Shown here one piece after another: positions 7,314-22,981 of a DNA stretch of 35,041 nucleotides. The DNA comes from Rickettsiales bacterium. Lineage in GTDB: Bacteria; Pseudomonadota; Alphaproteobacteria; Rickettsiales; UBA8987. The translations under genes were made by a program, and so were the position numbers. Each line of letters opens with the position of its first letter. The stretch's first letter is position 1. The stretch lies in NCBI GenBank assembly GCA_033762595.1, contig JANRLM010000034.1:1-35041 (forward strand). The letters are read 5' to 3'. The notes under the pieces are model-generated. The model worked only from the letters and a program-made list of their open reading frames with translations. It was not told where the DNA came from and made no database searches.

Positions 7314-7319
7314 TTGGTT

Positions 7320-7715
7320 ATGATTTATCTTGATACAAATGTTATAGTAAATTCTGCGATTAATAACATCTATAAACAAAAATCTCTAAAATTATTTTTG
7401 GAAGTTATAGAGCAGGGAAAATTTTTTTCTTCTTATTTGCTAATTCAAGAGTCTTTATTCGTTTTTAACAAATTAGATATTCCAAAAGAGGCAAGAGATT
7501 TTTATATTGATGTATTACTCAATCACTTGAAGGGCTATAATTTCTCAAAAGAATTTAGAAGAGCATTAGACTTATATAATAAAGTAAAATTAAAAAGCAC
7601 TAATGATTTATTTCATTTTGCAATCGCAGAAAGTTTTTGTGAAGAATTAATAACTTTTGATAAAGACTTTGAGAAGCTAAAACCATTTACTTCACTCAAG
7701 ATAACAATTTTGTAA
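7320..7715 (+). CDS. PIN-domain ribonuclease toxin (VapC-like), module 1
   Basis: PIN-domain toxins are Mg2+-dependent RNases that cut tRNA, rRNA or mRNA when freed from their antitoxin. This 131-residue protein has the family acidic residues: D5 in MIYLDTN, E44 in LIQES, D96 in STNDLFH and D114 in ITFDKDF. All four fall at the same positions as in the second toxin at 22583-22981, so the two are close paralogues. I chose the ATG at 7320 because it gives the canonical MIYLDTN start; a TTG at 7314 is also in frame. proA starts 1 bp after the stop, so the module is wedged directly against a housekeeping gene and may share its transcript. Confidence 0.88.
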   Translation: MIYLDTNVIVNSAINNIYKQKSLKLFLEVIEQGKFFSSYLLIQESLFVFNKLDIPKEARDFYIDVLLNHLKGYNFSKEFRRALDLYNKVKLKSTNDLFHFAIAESFCEELITFDKDFEKLKPFTSLKITIL

Positions 7716-7716
7716 A

Positions 7717-8970
7717 ATGAACATTACCGAAAAAACATTTGAAATTTGTGAGAGGGCGAAAATTGCTTCATCTGAAGTTGCACTCAAAAATTCTGAAACG
7801 AAAAATAAAGCCCTTAGAAATGCCGCAGCTTCCATAATGGATTATAAGAAAAATATTATTGCAGAAAATCAGAAAGATCTAGATTCGCTAAGCCCTGATG
7901 CCACAAAAGCCTTTATAGATAGGCTTAAACTTGACGAAAATAGAATCTCTGCAATCGCAAAAGGCTTGAATGAAATTGCAGAATTACCTGATCCTGTCGG
8001 TAAAATACTCGCAAGTTGGAAACGCCCTAACGGGCTTGAAATTTCAAGGGTAGCAACCCCTATTGGTGTGGTGGGGATTATATATGAATCCCGCCCGAAT
8101 GTAACCGCTGATGCGGGTGGCCTCTGCTTGAAATCAGGCAATACCTGCGTTTTGAGGGGCGGTTCTGATAGTATAAATTCCTCAATTGCTATTTTGGAAG
8201 CATTAAAACAGGGTTTGAAATCTGCTAATATTACCCAAGATGCAATTCAGCTTATCCCATTCAAAGAGCGTGAAGCCGTGGGTGCGATGCTAAGAGCCTC
8301 ACAATATATTGATGTTATAGTGCCAAGGGGAGGAAAAGGTTTAATTCAGAGGGTTATAGATGAAAGTAAAATCCCACTTTTTCAGCATTTAGATGGTAAT
8401 AATCACACCTATATCCATAAATCAGCTGATTTGGAAATGGCGGTTAAAGTGCTTCATAACGCCAAAATGCGTCGCACTGGCGTTTGTGGTGCAACTGAAA
8501 CCTTGGTTATTGATATTGAAATAATAGATAAAATTTTACCTAAAATCATAGAAATTCTTACAAATTCGTGTTGTGAAATTAGGGGCGATGAGTTAATCTC
8601 CAAGCTTGATTATCGTATAATTCCTGCCAATAATTCTGATTGGGATACTGAATATCTTGATTCAATTATTGCAGTAAAATCTGTTGGTGGTTTGGAAGAT
8701 GCGATAAAATTTATTAAGCAACATTCATCTGGCCATACTGATGCGATAATTGCCGAGGATAAATCAGTGGCGGAGGTTTTTTTGAAAGTTATAGATTCCG
8801 CAATCGTGATGCATAATACTTCAACGCAATTCGCAGATGGTGGGGAATTTGGTATGGGTGCTGAAATCGGCATTGCTACTGGCAAACTTCATGCAAGGGG
8901 GCCTGTTGGGGTTGAACAACTCTGCACTTTCAAATATATAGTCCGAGGTGATGGGCAAGTTAGGGGGTAG
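7717..8970 (+). CDS. proA: Gamma-glutamyl phosphate reductase
   Basis: ProA reduces gamma-glutamyl phosphate with NADPH to glutamate semialdehyde, the second step of proline synthesis. The 417-residue protein is full length for the family and belongs to the aldehyde dehydrogenase superfamily. Visible motifs are IGVVGIIYESRPNVTADA (about 116-133), the catalytic Cys257 in RRTGVCGATETL, and the C-terminal GMGAEIGIATGKLHARGPVG. The partner proB is not in the window. It lies 1 bp after the PIN toxin stop and 5 bp before the asparaginase-like gene, so all three could be on one transcript. The end of the gene contains an AGGGGGT run that serves as the ribosome-binding site of the next gene. Confidence 0.97.
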   Translation: MNITEKTFEICERAKIASSEVALKNSETKNKALRNAAASIMDYKKNIIAENQKDLDSLSPDATKAFIDRLKLDENRISAIAKGLNEIAELPDPVGKILASWKRPNGLEISRVATPIGVVGIIYESRPNVTADAGGLCLKSGNTCVLRGGSDSINSSIAILEALKQGLKSANITQDAIQLIPFKEREAVGAMLRASQYIDVIVPRGGKGLIQRVIDESKIPLFQHLDGNNHTYIHKSADLEMAVKVLHNAKMRRTGVCGATETLVIDIEIIDKILPKIIEILTNSCCEIRGDELISKLDYRIIPANNSDWDTEYLDSIIAVKSVGGLEDAIKFIKQHSSGHTDAIIAEDKSVAEVFLKVIDSAIVMHNTSTQFADGGEFGMGAEIGIATGKLHARGPVGVEQLCTFKYIVRGDGQVRG

Positions 8971-8975
8971 AAAAT

Positions 8976-10643
8976 ATGGGTTATGGCGTTGTTGTTACAG
9001 GTGGAACGGTTTTATGTGCAGAAAATGGTGAGGGGCTAAATGTTCCAATTTATGATGATTGGCATATTCAACAGCTTTTGACAATTTTGAAATATAAAAG
9101 TGAATTGGATAGTGAATATGAATCTCTAAAAACTCAGATTCTTGAAACAAAACATATTTTATTTCAACCTGAATCAGAACAAAAGAGAGTAAATCTTGAA
9201 AATACAAAGAGAACCATTCATAAAAATATTCTTGGAACAATTATAAATAAATTACCCCCCTCAGACGAAGCACTTTTGCATTTTATAAGAAATATGGCTT
9301 CGCTTCAAGGCTCTGGTCAAGATGTTGTTAGCCCTTACATAATAGATAGTATAAAATTTGATTTTAATGAGCATTATTATAGACTTCTTGAATCTGCAAA
9401 AGAACAATTATCTAAAAATGATTCTGTTGTAATAGTTGGTGGCACTGATACAATTCAATATTATGCAACGGCTTTAACAAAACATTTGAAAGCTAGCAGT
9501 TCATTATCTGGTAATAAAAAAATTTTTTTCTTATCCTCAATGGGTAATTTAGAAAATCATGCTGAGCATAACGCTAAATTGTTTGAAATTGCAGGGAATT
9601 TAACAAAAGATAATAATGTTCCGGGTGGCGGTGGTTATATACTCTCTTCTGCAGATAGGGATGCAAGAGAAGTTATTGTTCACGATGCAACAAATAGCTT
9701 TGTAAAAGTTTCTGCAAGACTACATAATTCTTTTAGAAGCCTATGCCCCGTTGGGATTTATGGAAAAAATGGCTTTGAAAAGAATAAAAATTATATACCA
9801 CCCAATGCTTTCTTAGAGTATGTTGGCGGAGGTATTGACGATTCAAGCCCTGTTCTAAATAGAATAGCACCACCTTTATTGCAAGCAAATGGTCAAGATG
9901 AAGTGATCGCTTATCTTGATGCGGTAGCAATTATAAAGCCACCTGTAAATGCTGCAGTGATAGAGATAAATCCTAAATGGATTATACAAAGAGGAGACGG
10001 AAAATTTGATGAAATAAAATCAAAGATAAAAGGCCTTAAAAAGGCGGGCATAGATGTTATTTTGAATAATTATTATATATACAAAAATAACGGTGACACA
10101 ATTGAACCTAAGTATCAAAAACAGGATTTAGATAAAAATAATTTTTTGGAACAACTTTTAAAAGAAGGGGCGATATATGATGAAAAAACTACAAAAGGCT
10201 GTGCCGTAAATGCTTTGATTAGAAATAACATTCAAACCTATCAAAATGGTTTTAATATGGAAAATTCTAATAATAAAAATTTAGTTTTGTCTATTGGCTA
10301 TTTTCCTGATCAAGAATTATTTATACAATTTTGTAAAGAGTTAAAAAATAGAGGCGTTGTTGGTGTAAGCATCTCAGGCTTACCAGGTTCAGTATTACCT
10401 GAAAAAGTAGTTAACTCTCTTGAAAATATTTTTGGAGAAAATAACTTTAATATCTCTTTTGCTGGTAATGAAAATCTATATCCAGATCCAGAAAATAAAG
10501 GAAAAACTTTCACAGAAGGTGAAGGAGTTAATAAGGCGCATTATGCTGAAGGTGCAAAAGCCGCAAAATATGCAAGCCCATTATCTCCCGAAAATGCTGT
10601 AAAAGAACTTAGAGATAGATTGCTTAAAAATAGAACTAGATAA
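8976..10643 (+). CDS. Divergent, extended asparaginase-like protein
   Basis: This 555-residue protein shares the core pattern of L-asparaginase/glutaminase enzymes, which hydrolyse Asn to Asp and ammonia, but is far from the usual length of about 330. Matches seen in order: VVTGGTV with a candidate nucleophile Thr11; LQGSGQDV at about 111-117, resembling the substrate-binding GSQDM; VVIVGGTDTIQ with Thr157-Asp158; Lys181 eight residues before Met189, as for the catalytic Lys of E. coli type II; and NSFRS at 251-255. The His of the classical HGTDT is replaced by Gly. About 55 extra residues sit between the first two motifs, and the C-terminal half is much longer. No signal peptide is visible. 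The start is supported by AGGGGGT 8 bp upstream. Neighbours are proA (5 bp) and plsC (1 bp). Activity and substrate are unproven. Confidence 0.7.
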   Translation: MGYGVVVTGGTVLCAENGEGLNVPIYDDWHIQQLLTILKYKSELDSEYESLKTQILETKHILFQPESEQKRVNLENTKRTIHKNILGTIINKLPPSDEALLHFIRNMASLQGSGQDVVSPYIIDSIKFDFNEHYYRLLESAKEQLSKNDSVVIVGGTDTIQYYATALTKHLKASSSLSGNKKIFFLSSMGNLENHAEHNAKLFEIAGNLTKDNNVPGGGGYILSSADRDAREVIVHDATNSFVKVSARLHNSFRSLCPVGIYGKNGFEKNKNYIPPNAFLEYVGGGIDDSSPVLNRIAPPLLQANGQDEVIAYLDAVAIIKPPVNAAVIEINPKWIIQRGDGKFDEIKSKIKGLKKAGIDVILNNYYIYKNNGDTIEPKYQKQDLDKNNFLEQLLKEGAIYDEKTTKGCAVNALIRNNIQTYQNGFNMENSNNKNLVLSIGYFPDQELFIQFCKELKNRGVVGVSISGLPGSVLPEKVVNSLENIFGENNFNISFAGNENLYPDPENKGKTFTEGEGVNKAHYAEGAKAAKYASPLSPENAVKELRDRLLKNRTR

Positions 10644-10644
10644 A

Positions 10645-11412
10645 ATGTTCCTGCTATTTTTTTACATATGGACTGCTGTAGTTTTGGTTTTGTTTTCACC
10701 AAGTTATATCAACTTCAAACTTTGCATGAAGGCCTCTCAGGCTTGGGCAGCGGGTGTGGTTTGGGGTCTTAAACATATTGCAGGGGTTGAAAGCAAGCTT
10801 ATCGGCATTGAAAATCTTGAAAAACTAACTGGCAATAAATATTCCTTTGAGGGTGGTCGGTTAAAAAATCTATCAACCATCAACCATCAACCATCAACCA
10901 ATAAAGGCTTCATCGTTGCCTGCAAGCATCAATCCGCGTGGGAAACTATTGTTCCTTTTCTCTATGTTCCAAACACATCTTATGTGTATAAAAAGGAAAT
11001 CGGCTATATTCCATTTTTTGGCTGGTATAATGTTTTTTTGAATAATATTTCTGTTGATAGAAAAGCTGGTGCGAAAGCACTTAAAATCGTTACATCGCAA
11101 GCAATAGCAAGGGTTTCTGAAGGGCGAGGTATTACACTTTTCCCAGAAGGGACGAGAGTTCCAGTGGATAAAAAAGTGAAATATAAACCAGCAATTTACT
11201 CAATTTATAAAGAAGGGGTTGATGTAATTCCAGCCGCGGTGAATTCAGGATATTTCTGGCCAAAAGGAAAATTTTTGAATAAAAAAGGCACGATTTATTT
11301 TGAGTATCTTGAGCCTATGCCAAAAGGCTTATCTAAAGAAGATTTTATGGCAGAACTTGAAAATAGAATTGAAACCGCTTCACAAAAATTAGCAAATATA
11401 TCAAATGGATAG
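10645..11412 (+). CDS. plsC: PlsC-like 1-acyl-sn-glycerol-3-phosphate acyltransferase
   Basis: The product probably transfers an acyl chain to lysophosphatidic acid, making phosphatidic acid for membrane lipids. The 255-residue protein starts with a membrane-anchoring helix (about 2-20). It carries the acyltransferase block I as KHQSAWET (H95 to E100, an HX4E rather than HX4D spacing), then IPFFGW, FLNNISVDR and the FPEGTR block at 166-171. The HX4E form is, to my knowledge, common in alphaproteobacterial homologues. Between residues about 60 and 87, just before block I, is a hydrophilic insert partly encoded by four exact copies of a 7-bp unit (10872-10899). It begins 1 bp after the asparaginase-like gene and overlaps sdhE by 8 bp, so these are likely one operon. 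Confidence 0.88.
   Translation: MFLLFFYIWTAVVLVLFSPSYINFKLCMKASQAWAAGVVWGLKHIAGVESKLIGIENLEKLTGNKYSFEGGRLKNLSTINHQPSTNKGFIVACKHQSAWETIVPFLYVPNTSYVYKKEIGYIPFFGWYNVFLNNISVDRKAGAKALKIVTSQAIARVSEGRGITLFPEGTRVPVDKKVKYKPAIYSIYKEGVDVIPAAVNSGYFWPKGKFLNKKGTIYFEYLEPMPKGLSKEDFMAELENRIETASQKLANISNG
10872..10899 (+). repeat. Four tandem copies of the 7-bp unit ATCAACC inside plsC
   Basis: Four exact head-to-tail copies of ATCAACC lie within the acyltransferase coding sequence and encode roughly residues 76-85. Seven is not a multiple of three, so gain or loss of one unit would shift the frame just before the catalytic HX4E block. Copy number in this window keeps the gene open. Confidence 0.9.
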
Positions 11413-11653
11413 AGAAACTAAAATCAAAAAATTATTATATCAAAGCTGGTATAGGGGTTGCAAAGAAACTGATAAAATTCTAGGGGTTTTTGCACGAGAA
11501 AATCTGCATAATTTATCAGATGCTGAAATTGAAGAATTTGAGGCAATCCTTAAAGAAAATGATGTAGATATTTATAATTGGTTGACAGGCAAACAGCCTG
11601 TTCCATTAGAGATTAAAAATAATTCTATTTTTTCAAAATTGCTAAGCAATTAA
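11405..11653 (+). CDS. sdhE: Succinate dehydrogenase assembly factor SdhE (FAD assembly)
   Basis: SdhE (YgfY/Sdh5, DUF339) promotes covalent attachment of FAD to the SdhA flavoprotein of respiratory complex II. The 82-residue product is all-helical in pattern and carries the family RGxxExD signature as YRGCKETD (R17, G18, E21, D23), followed by LGVFARENL and a short NWLTGKQPVP segment typical of the C terminus. Length is normal. The start overlaps the end of plsC by 8 bp, indicating translational coupling. The last 12 bp overlap the 3' end of alaS on the opposite strand. No sdh structural genes lie in the window. Confidence 0.93.
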   Translation: MDRETKIKKLLYQSWYRGCKETDKILGVFARENLHNLSDAEIEEFEAILKENDVDIYNWLTGKQPVPLEIKNNSIFSKLLSN

Positions 11654-22271: not shown

Positions 22272-22338
22272 GTTTCCGCTAAACTACCTATTTATTTTTC
22301 TACTAACTTAGTTTATAATGCCCTTAGGAGAAATAATT

Positions 22339-22569
22339 ATGCAAACAACATTTGAAACAACTATTGAACAACTTCAGCATAGCATTACATCTTACATTGA
22401 TCGCTTCCCAGCTAAAAGCAATATAAGGGTTACTATTGAAGATGTTGATAGCGACGAGGCAGTAAAAAAAAGAATTGAAGCATTCAAACGCATTCAAAAA
22501 GCTTGTGCTGGAATTCGCATTCCTGAAGGGGTTAATATAGACGAACTTGCTAACGAATCAAACCTATAA
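22339..22569 (+). CDS. Putative antitoxin of PIN toxin module 2
   Basis: A 76-residue protein paired with the PIN toxin that starts 13 bp later. The ATG at 22339 is preferred over the ATG at 22318, because AGGAG (22326-22330) lies 8 bp before it; this also makes its length match the 75-residue antitoxin of module 1. Shared parts are VTIEDVD in the middle, a charged helix (VKKRIEAFKRIQKA), and the C-terminal tail VNIDELANESNL. The N terminus (TTFETTIEQLQHSI) is different from copy 1. No standard DNA-binding fold is evident. The antitoxin role is inferred from gene order and the paralogous arrangement. Confidence 0.72.
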   Translation: MQTTFETTIEQLQHSITSYIDRFPAKSNIRVTIEDVDSDEAVKKRIEAFKRIQKACAGIRIPEGVNIDELANESNL

Positions 22570-22582
22570 TTTTTCTAAAAAA

Positions 22583-22981
22583 ATGATTTATCTTGATACT
22601 AATGTTTTAATTAATTCCATTTTGGATGGAAATAAAAAAAAATTATGTGAAAAGATTTTTCTAGATGCTATAAAAAATAAAAAGCTATTTTCCTCATATC
22701 CTTTGGTTCAAGAAACTTGCTATGTTTTAGCAAAAAATAAGATAGAAAATATCACTATAGAAGACCTATCAAATTTACTTATTGAGTTAAGTGAGGATAT
22801 AAATCTTCAAGAAATATATTATAGAGCATTAAACCTCTCAAGAAAAGTTGGCTTTACAAATATAAATGATTGTATTCACACTGCAATTGCAGAAGCTGAA
22901 TGTGAAGAATTAATAACTTATGATAAAGGATTTAAGAAAATTATTCCTCATACAAACTTAAAAATCACCATTCTTGATTGA
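22583..22981 (+). CDS. PIN-domain ribonuclease toxin (VapC-like), module 2
   Basis: This 132-residue PIN-domain RNase toxin has the acidic residues D5 (MIYLDTN), E44 (LVQET), D96 (NINDCIH) and D114 (ITYDKGF). These match the first toxin at every position, and both close with LKITIL. The ATG at 22583 gives the canonical N terminus; a longer in-frame start at 22547 would overlap the antitoxin. queA begins 18 bp after the stop. As with module 1, no transposase or integrase remnant flanks it, so how it was duplicated or acquired is not visible. Confidence 0.88.
   Translation: MIYLDTNVLINSILDGNKKKLCEKIFLDAIKNKKLFSSYPLVQETCYVLAKNKIENITIEDLSNLLIELSEDINLQEIYYRALNLSRKVGFTNINDCIHTAIAEAECEELITYDKGFKKIIPHTNLKITILD

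Follow-up and report, generated by a model that had tools for sequence, protein, structure and literature searches.

A divergent asparaginase-like protein, and probable amidohydrolase, from a deep lineage in Rickettsiales

Introduction

A Rickettsiales genome carries, between a proA-like and a plsC-like gene, a reading frame whose product (P0001) was taken in a preliminary description for a divergent asparaginase with large insertions and an extended C-terminal half. Does this protein belong to the class-1 asparaginase superfamily and, if so, is it a working enzyme of a known type, a lineage of its own, or a non-enzymatic derivative? The window, that is, the whole stretch of DNA analyzed, is 35,041 nucleotides long. 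Searching the literature for divergent asparaginases in Rickettsiales and for tandem C-domains, we found nothing on point. The Asparaginase Database (PMC13425635) has 40 families.

Gene and genomic context

The reading frame is real, with an ATG start, 555 codons, and an SD-like AGGGGG 5' of the start codon. The gene and its two neighbors are as follows.

8976..10643, +, divergent class-1 asparaginase-like protein P0001, whole ORF, 555 aa (Pfam, family profile, Foldseek)
7717..8970, +, proA-like neighbor (gamma-glutamyl phosphate reductase) upstream of P0001 (Pfam Aldedh; 5-bp gap)
10645..11412, +, plsC-like acyltransferase downstream of P0001 (1-bp gap)

The position between proA and plsC, with gaps of 5 and 1 bp, was borne out as first described. 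The name proA comes from reading the sequence; the Pfam match itself is to Aldedh. Counts of promoter and terminator patterns in the stretch were close to the shuffled expectation, and it is from the gene spacing alone that co-transcription of P0001 with its neighbors appears likely. When the homologue loci were compared, no conserved operon was found around them, and proA was not kept as a neighbor. Two of these loci (L024 and L026) lie near flagellar-type genes and an 'RFIDR' protein (about 220 aa, unmatched in Pfam), and the other homologues lack these.

Other small reading frames were seen in the window. An 82-aa Sdh5/SdhE-like ORF (11405-11653, +) overlaps the end of the plsC-like gene, and a PIN-domain-like ORF (Pfam PIN) occupies 7314-7715 (+). 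A second PIN-like ORF (22547-22981, +) reads like the one at 7314-7715 and comes after an 83-aa ORF (22318-22569), with which it possibly forms a toxin-antitoxin pair.

Family distribution and relationship to asparaginases

Relatives of P0001 were present in 6 of the 344 genomes searched in its order, its own genome included. The six genomes represent six different genera and five families, and the relatives share 22-31% identity with P0001; five of them were also recovered by a pattern-based scan of genome contigs. When 385 genomes sampled from the class were searched with a profile, the matches were weak and partial, several being ordinary asparaginases, and no member of the P0001 family was among them. 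No relatives were found in viral contigs, plasmids or phages, and a viral origin was rejected on these searches. In the window genome, P0001 was the sole PF00710 protein found.

The Pfam check proposed in the preliminary description gave a positive result: P0001 scored 24.7 bits with the Asparaginase N-domain profile (PF00710), above the curated cut-off of 22.5, and an Asparaginase match at E<=1 was obtained in all six family members. A phmmer search with P0001 found no PDB chain. The six-member family profile matched 33 PDB sequences at E<=1, all of the asparaginase/GatD superfamily, with a best E of 2.9e-8. When the family was aligned by hhalign to canonical N-domains, the probability was 98%; the N-domain score was 98, and none of 200 column-shuffled decoys scored above 22. 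The resemblance of P0001 to asparaginases is far beyond chance. A Radical SAM identity was considered and rejected, as the Pfam score of 18.1 bits was below the cut-off of 29.5 and the match overlapped the Rossmann-like core.

The known subfamilies fitted poorly. The NCBIfam model of type I asparaginases (TIGR00519) gave 18.6 bits against a cut-off of 260.5. In a tree built from 68 N-domain sequences, rooted at the midpoint and with a long branch for the homologue L028, the P0001 family formed a single clade (99/97), and the full-length asparaginases (94/84) and short-chain asparaginases (96/90) were both separate from it. The family is a deep lineage of the class-1 asparaginase/GatD superfamily, outside the full-length and short-chain enzymes. 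The profiles, Foldseek and the tree thus agree with the initial view of a divergent subfamily that is neither type I/II nor GatD. Because it is so far confined to six scattered genomes of one alphaproteobacterial order, we regard it as a new offshoot of a known enzyme family and not as a new type of system.

Predicted structures

Structure prediction had also been proposed. The AF2 model of P0001 was weak (pLDDT 62.6, pTM 0.47); its PDB matches at E<=0.001 were all asparaginases. A better model was obtained for the homologue L024, which lacks the insert described below (pLDDT 75.8, pTM 0.80; last 48 residues of low confidence), and all 50 PDB matches listed for it by Foldseek were asparaginases or GatD. 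Among the matches listed, the best was GatD 1zq1 (E 6.6e-12), the TM to target ranged from 0.51 to 0.68, and the alignments covered 312-394 columns. The predicted fold of the P0001 family, as modeled on L024, is that of an asparaginase. Together with the Pfam score and the family profile, the Foldseek matches support the asparaginase core that had been proposed for P0001.

N-domain and insert

8976..9836, +, N-terminal (catalytic) asparaginase domain, residues 1-287 (PF00710; hhalign 98%; Foldseek on homologue L024)
9057..9293, +, helix-predicted insert, about residues 28-106, borders approximate (in P0001, L026 and L027 only)

The spacing from T11 to D124 is 113 residues in P0001, compared with 39 in L024 and 45 in E. 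coli AnsB. Extra residues between the first two motifs, put at 55 in the preliminary description, do exist, but they number about 70. A search for homologues sharing the insert had been suggested as a way to recognize a family; the family exists, but the insert occurs in three members (P0001, L026, L027) and is absent from the other three, and it does not mark the family.

Active site

The four predicted active-site elements are listed in order.

8997..9008, +, TGGT motif, residues 8-11 (invariant 6/6; T11 at the AnsB T12 nucleophile position)
9342..9350, +, I123-D124-S125, second motif (invariant 6/6; S125 at AnsB S58)
9438..9452, +, GGTDT, residues 155-159 (T157/D158 at AnsB T89/D90; D invariant, T in five members, S in one)
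9705..9707, +, Lys244, at AnsB catalytic K162 (invariant 6/6; in register with the canonical Lys)

When the AnsB sequence was numbered, the residues expected at T12, S58, T89, D90 and K162 were all found there. In RrA of Rhodospirillum rubrum, Lys158 corresponds to EcAII Lys162 (PMC10949315). Nineteen of the 391 gap-free positions in the six-member alignment were invariant, T11, S125, D158 and K244 among them. Four of five canonical active-site positions were invariant; the chance of four or more is about 2e-5 if columns are independent. By alignment, the catalytic positions T12, T89, D90 and K162 are kept in P0001 as the predicted T11, T157, D158 and K244. In L024, T15, S55, T87, D88 and K173 are the counterparts of T11, S125, T157, D158 and K244.

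The TGGT, GGTDT and FRS (residues 253-255) motifs first noticed in P0001 are all present, and two other assignments were revised. SGQD (113-116), first taken as the second motif, adjoins the insert, and the actual motif is I123-D124-S125-x-x-F128, invariant in all six members and aligned with the AnsB S58 motif. Lys181 had been named as the catalytic Lys; in an hhalign comparison of the family with 46 asparaginases from other genomes, it was K244 that fell over the canonical Lys. Because K244 and S125 are invariant and aligned to canonical positions, neither Lys181 nor SGQD is considered a catalytic part. A loss of the catalytic Lys, which would follow if its counterpart were placed in the helix behind the SSM motif, was likewise rejected, since AnsB K162 in DVTKTNTT corresponds to the invariant K244.

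Other pocket positions have changed. The reported replacement of the HGTDT His by Gly is correct for P0001 and for four members overall, but it is not family-wide, with Leu at residue 155 in one member and Thr in another. Five of the six members have Ile where AnsB has Gln59. In canonical enzymes, N248 and E283 of the C-domain reach the active site of the neighboring subunit, and these two residues are without a clear equivalent in the P0001 family.

C-terminal half

9837..10250, +, C1, canonical asparaginase C-domain position, residues 288-425 (alpha/beta order in both models; hhalign)
10263..10640, +, C2, extra C-terminal segment, residues 430-555, possible second C-domain (invariant Y442, G471, P475, Y523)

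The extended C-terminal half that had been noticed in P0001 is real and common to the whole family. No Pfam match to Asparaginase_C (PF17763) was obtained in P0001, in C1 alone or in C2 alone, and none was found in its own genome; C1 and C2 searched alone against Pfam and PDB gave no significant match. By hhalign, C1 scored 20.9 against the canonical C-domain (decoys reached 19.2 at most and alpha/beta control windows 17.2), and C2 scored 16.0 (decoys at most 14.7; alpha/beta controls at most 13.4). C1 against C2 scored about 17, which 1 of 200 shuffled decoys reached. The three comparisons are roughly in register and narrowly above decoys and controls, with low hhalign probabilities of 1-6%. 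On visual inspection, C1 and C2 each finish with two helices resembling the canonical 'GV..DMTPEAA' segment. The canonical GxGN and E283 region is not recognizable in C1, and C2 carries YxP and LPGxxLP motifs, then a Tyr-Ala segment, then an SPExA-type helix. The Foldseek alignment lengths of the L024 model would fit N + C1 better than N + C2.

The C-terminal half may be a tandem C-domain duplication (N-C1-C2), with C2 as a possibly degenerate second copy, which would give a class-1 asparaginase architecture of N, C and C'. We hold this tentative reading somewhat less probable than its opposite and keep it as a hypothesis because neither C1 nor C2, searched alone, matches a family in Pfam or the PDB. 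If it is true, C2 may assume the intersubunit role in the active site, or modulate it.

Proposed function and alternatives

P0001 is probably an amidohydrolase of the class-1 asparaginase superfamily, probably cytoplasmic, and of a deep lineage of its own; no signal peptide was seen by eye. We infer its activity, substrate, location and oligomeric state. The N-domain would use a conserved two-Thr machinery, in which Thr11 is the first nucleophile, Thr157-Asp158-Lys244 form the second triad and Ser125 lies in the substrate pocket, and the enzyme would hydrolyze a side-chain amide (Asn or a related small amide) to the acid and ammonia. C1, in the canonical C-domain place, would complete the protomer, and the alpha/beta C2 would be appended.

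Extreme divergence of the family, a pocket Gln59 and C-domain contacts that are not recognizably kept, and a patchy distribution with no conserved operon partner would also suit a protein of asparaginase fold that has no catalytic activity and serves as a sensor or regulator by binding an amino acid or amide. In a dead pocket, however, one would not expect T11, S125, D158 and K244 to be invariant, and T157 to be T or S, at 22-31% identity. A working amidohydrolase is favored because of these residues, the inactive protein is unlikely, and the non-enzymatic derivative first offered as an option is disfavored, since, with Lys and Ser correctly assigned, the canonical catalytic positions are retained. 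It is very improbable that P0001 serves as a GatD-like subunit in a tRNA-dependent amidotransferase. Both 1zq1 and 2d6f were among the best Foldseek matches of the L024 model, and the NCBIfam GatD model gave a weak match of 16.5 bits, but this is far under the cut-off of 324. GatD requires GatE, and the window genome has a bacterial GatB (398.9 bits), with GatE-model matches only on the GatB ORF (76.6 bits; cut-off 319.55); we therefore do not regard P0001 as GatD.

The amidohydrolase reading includes a special case, not exclusive of it, in which the same mechanism acts on a substrate other than free asparagine (e.g., Gln, a peptide or an amide of the cell wall). Motif changes near the pocket, an extra segment with its own invariant residues and the separate lineage in the tree are consistent with it, and the upstream proA, though not a conserved neighbor, hints at Glu/Pro metabolism. 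The insert, however, is missing from half of the family, and we consider another substrate, with specificity determined by the changed pocket and the added C-terminal segment, possible but rather doubtful.

Comparison with known enzymes

P0001 is best placed as a new lineage within a known superfamily, and it is probably active. It shares with the full-length class-1 L-asparaginases (type I AnsA, type II AnsB and archaeal) the N-domain fold, the TGGT, DS, GTD and Lys162 positions and a C-domain-like region in the same place, whereas its family forms a separate clade, has lost the HGTDT His and adds a C-terminal segment of about 125 residues. The asparaginase-like core is also common to archaeal GatD (GatDE), but the P0001 genome carries a GatCAB-type GatB and no GatE-type match over the cut-off. 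The short-chain asparaginases (scASNase) consist of the N-domain only, RrA of R. rubrum having 172 aa (PMC10949315). P0001 has the N-domain fold and catalytic set in common with them, and its order also has short proteins resembling them; at 555 aa, with two further segments and in a separate clade, P0001 differs from a single N-domain of about 170-250 aa.

The P0001 family thus adds a deep, uncharacterized branch, from an order whose genomes are reduced, to an enzyme superfamily of importance in therapy and industry. An active site that has diverged around retained catalytic positions could help to tell catalytic essentials from specificity determinants. The practical importance of the family stays limited as long as its activity is only predicted.

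Other asparaginase-like genes were observed in the order. Short N-domain-only ORFs (about 180-250 aa; L044-L059 and L023) occur in several families and form one clade (96/90) resembling the short-chain asparaginases of PMC10949315, and two genomes (G013 and G254) have both such an ORF and a P0001-like protein. Many g118 genomes have a canonical full-length asparaginase at 206-224 bits; G313 shows the P0001-like L028 only, whose ORF reaches the contig end. Three genomes (loci L073, L074 and L076) have adjoining large open frames of 600-660 and 760-776 aa, each with an Asparaginase_C match.
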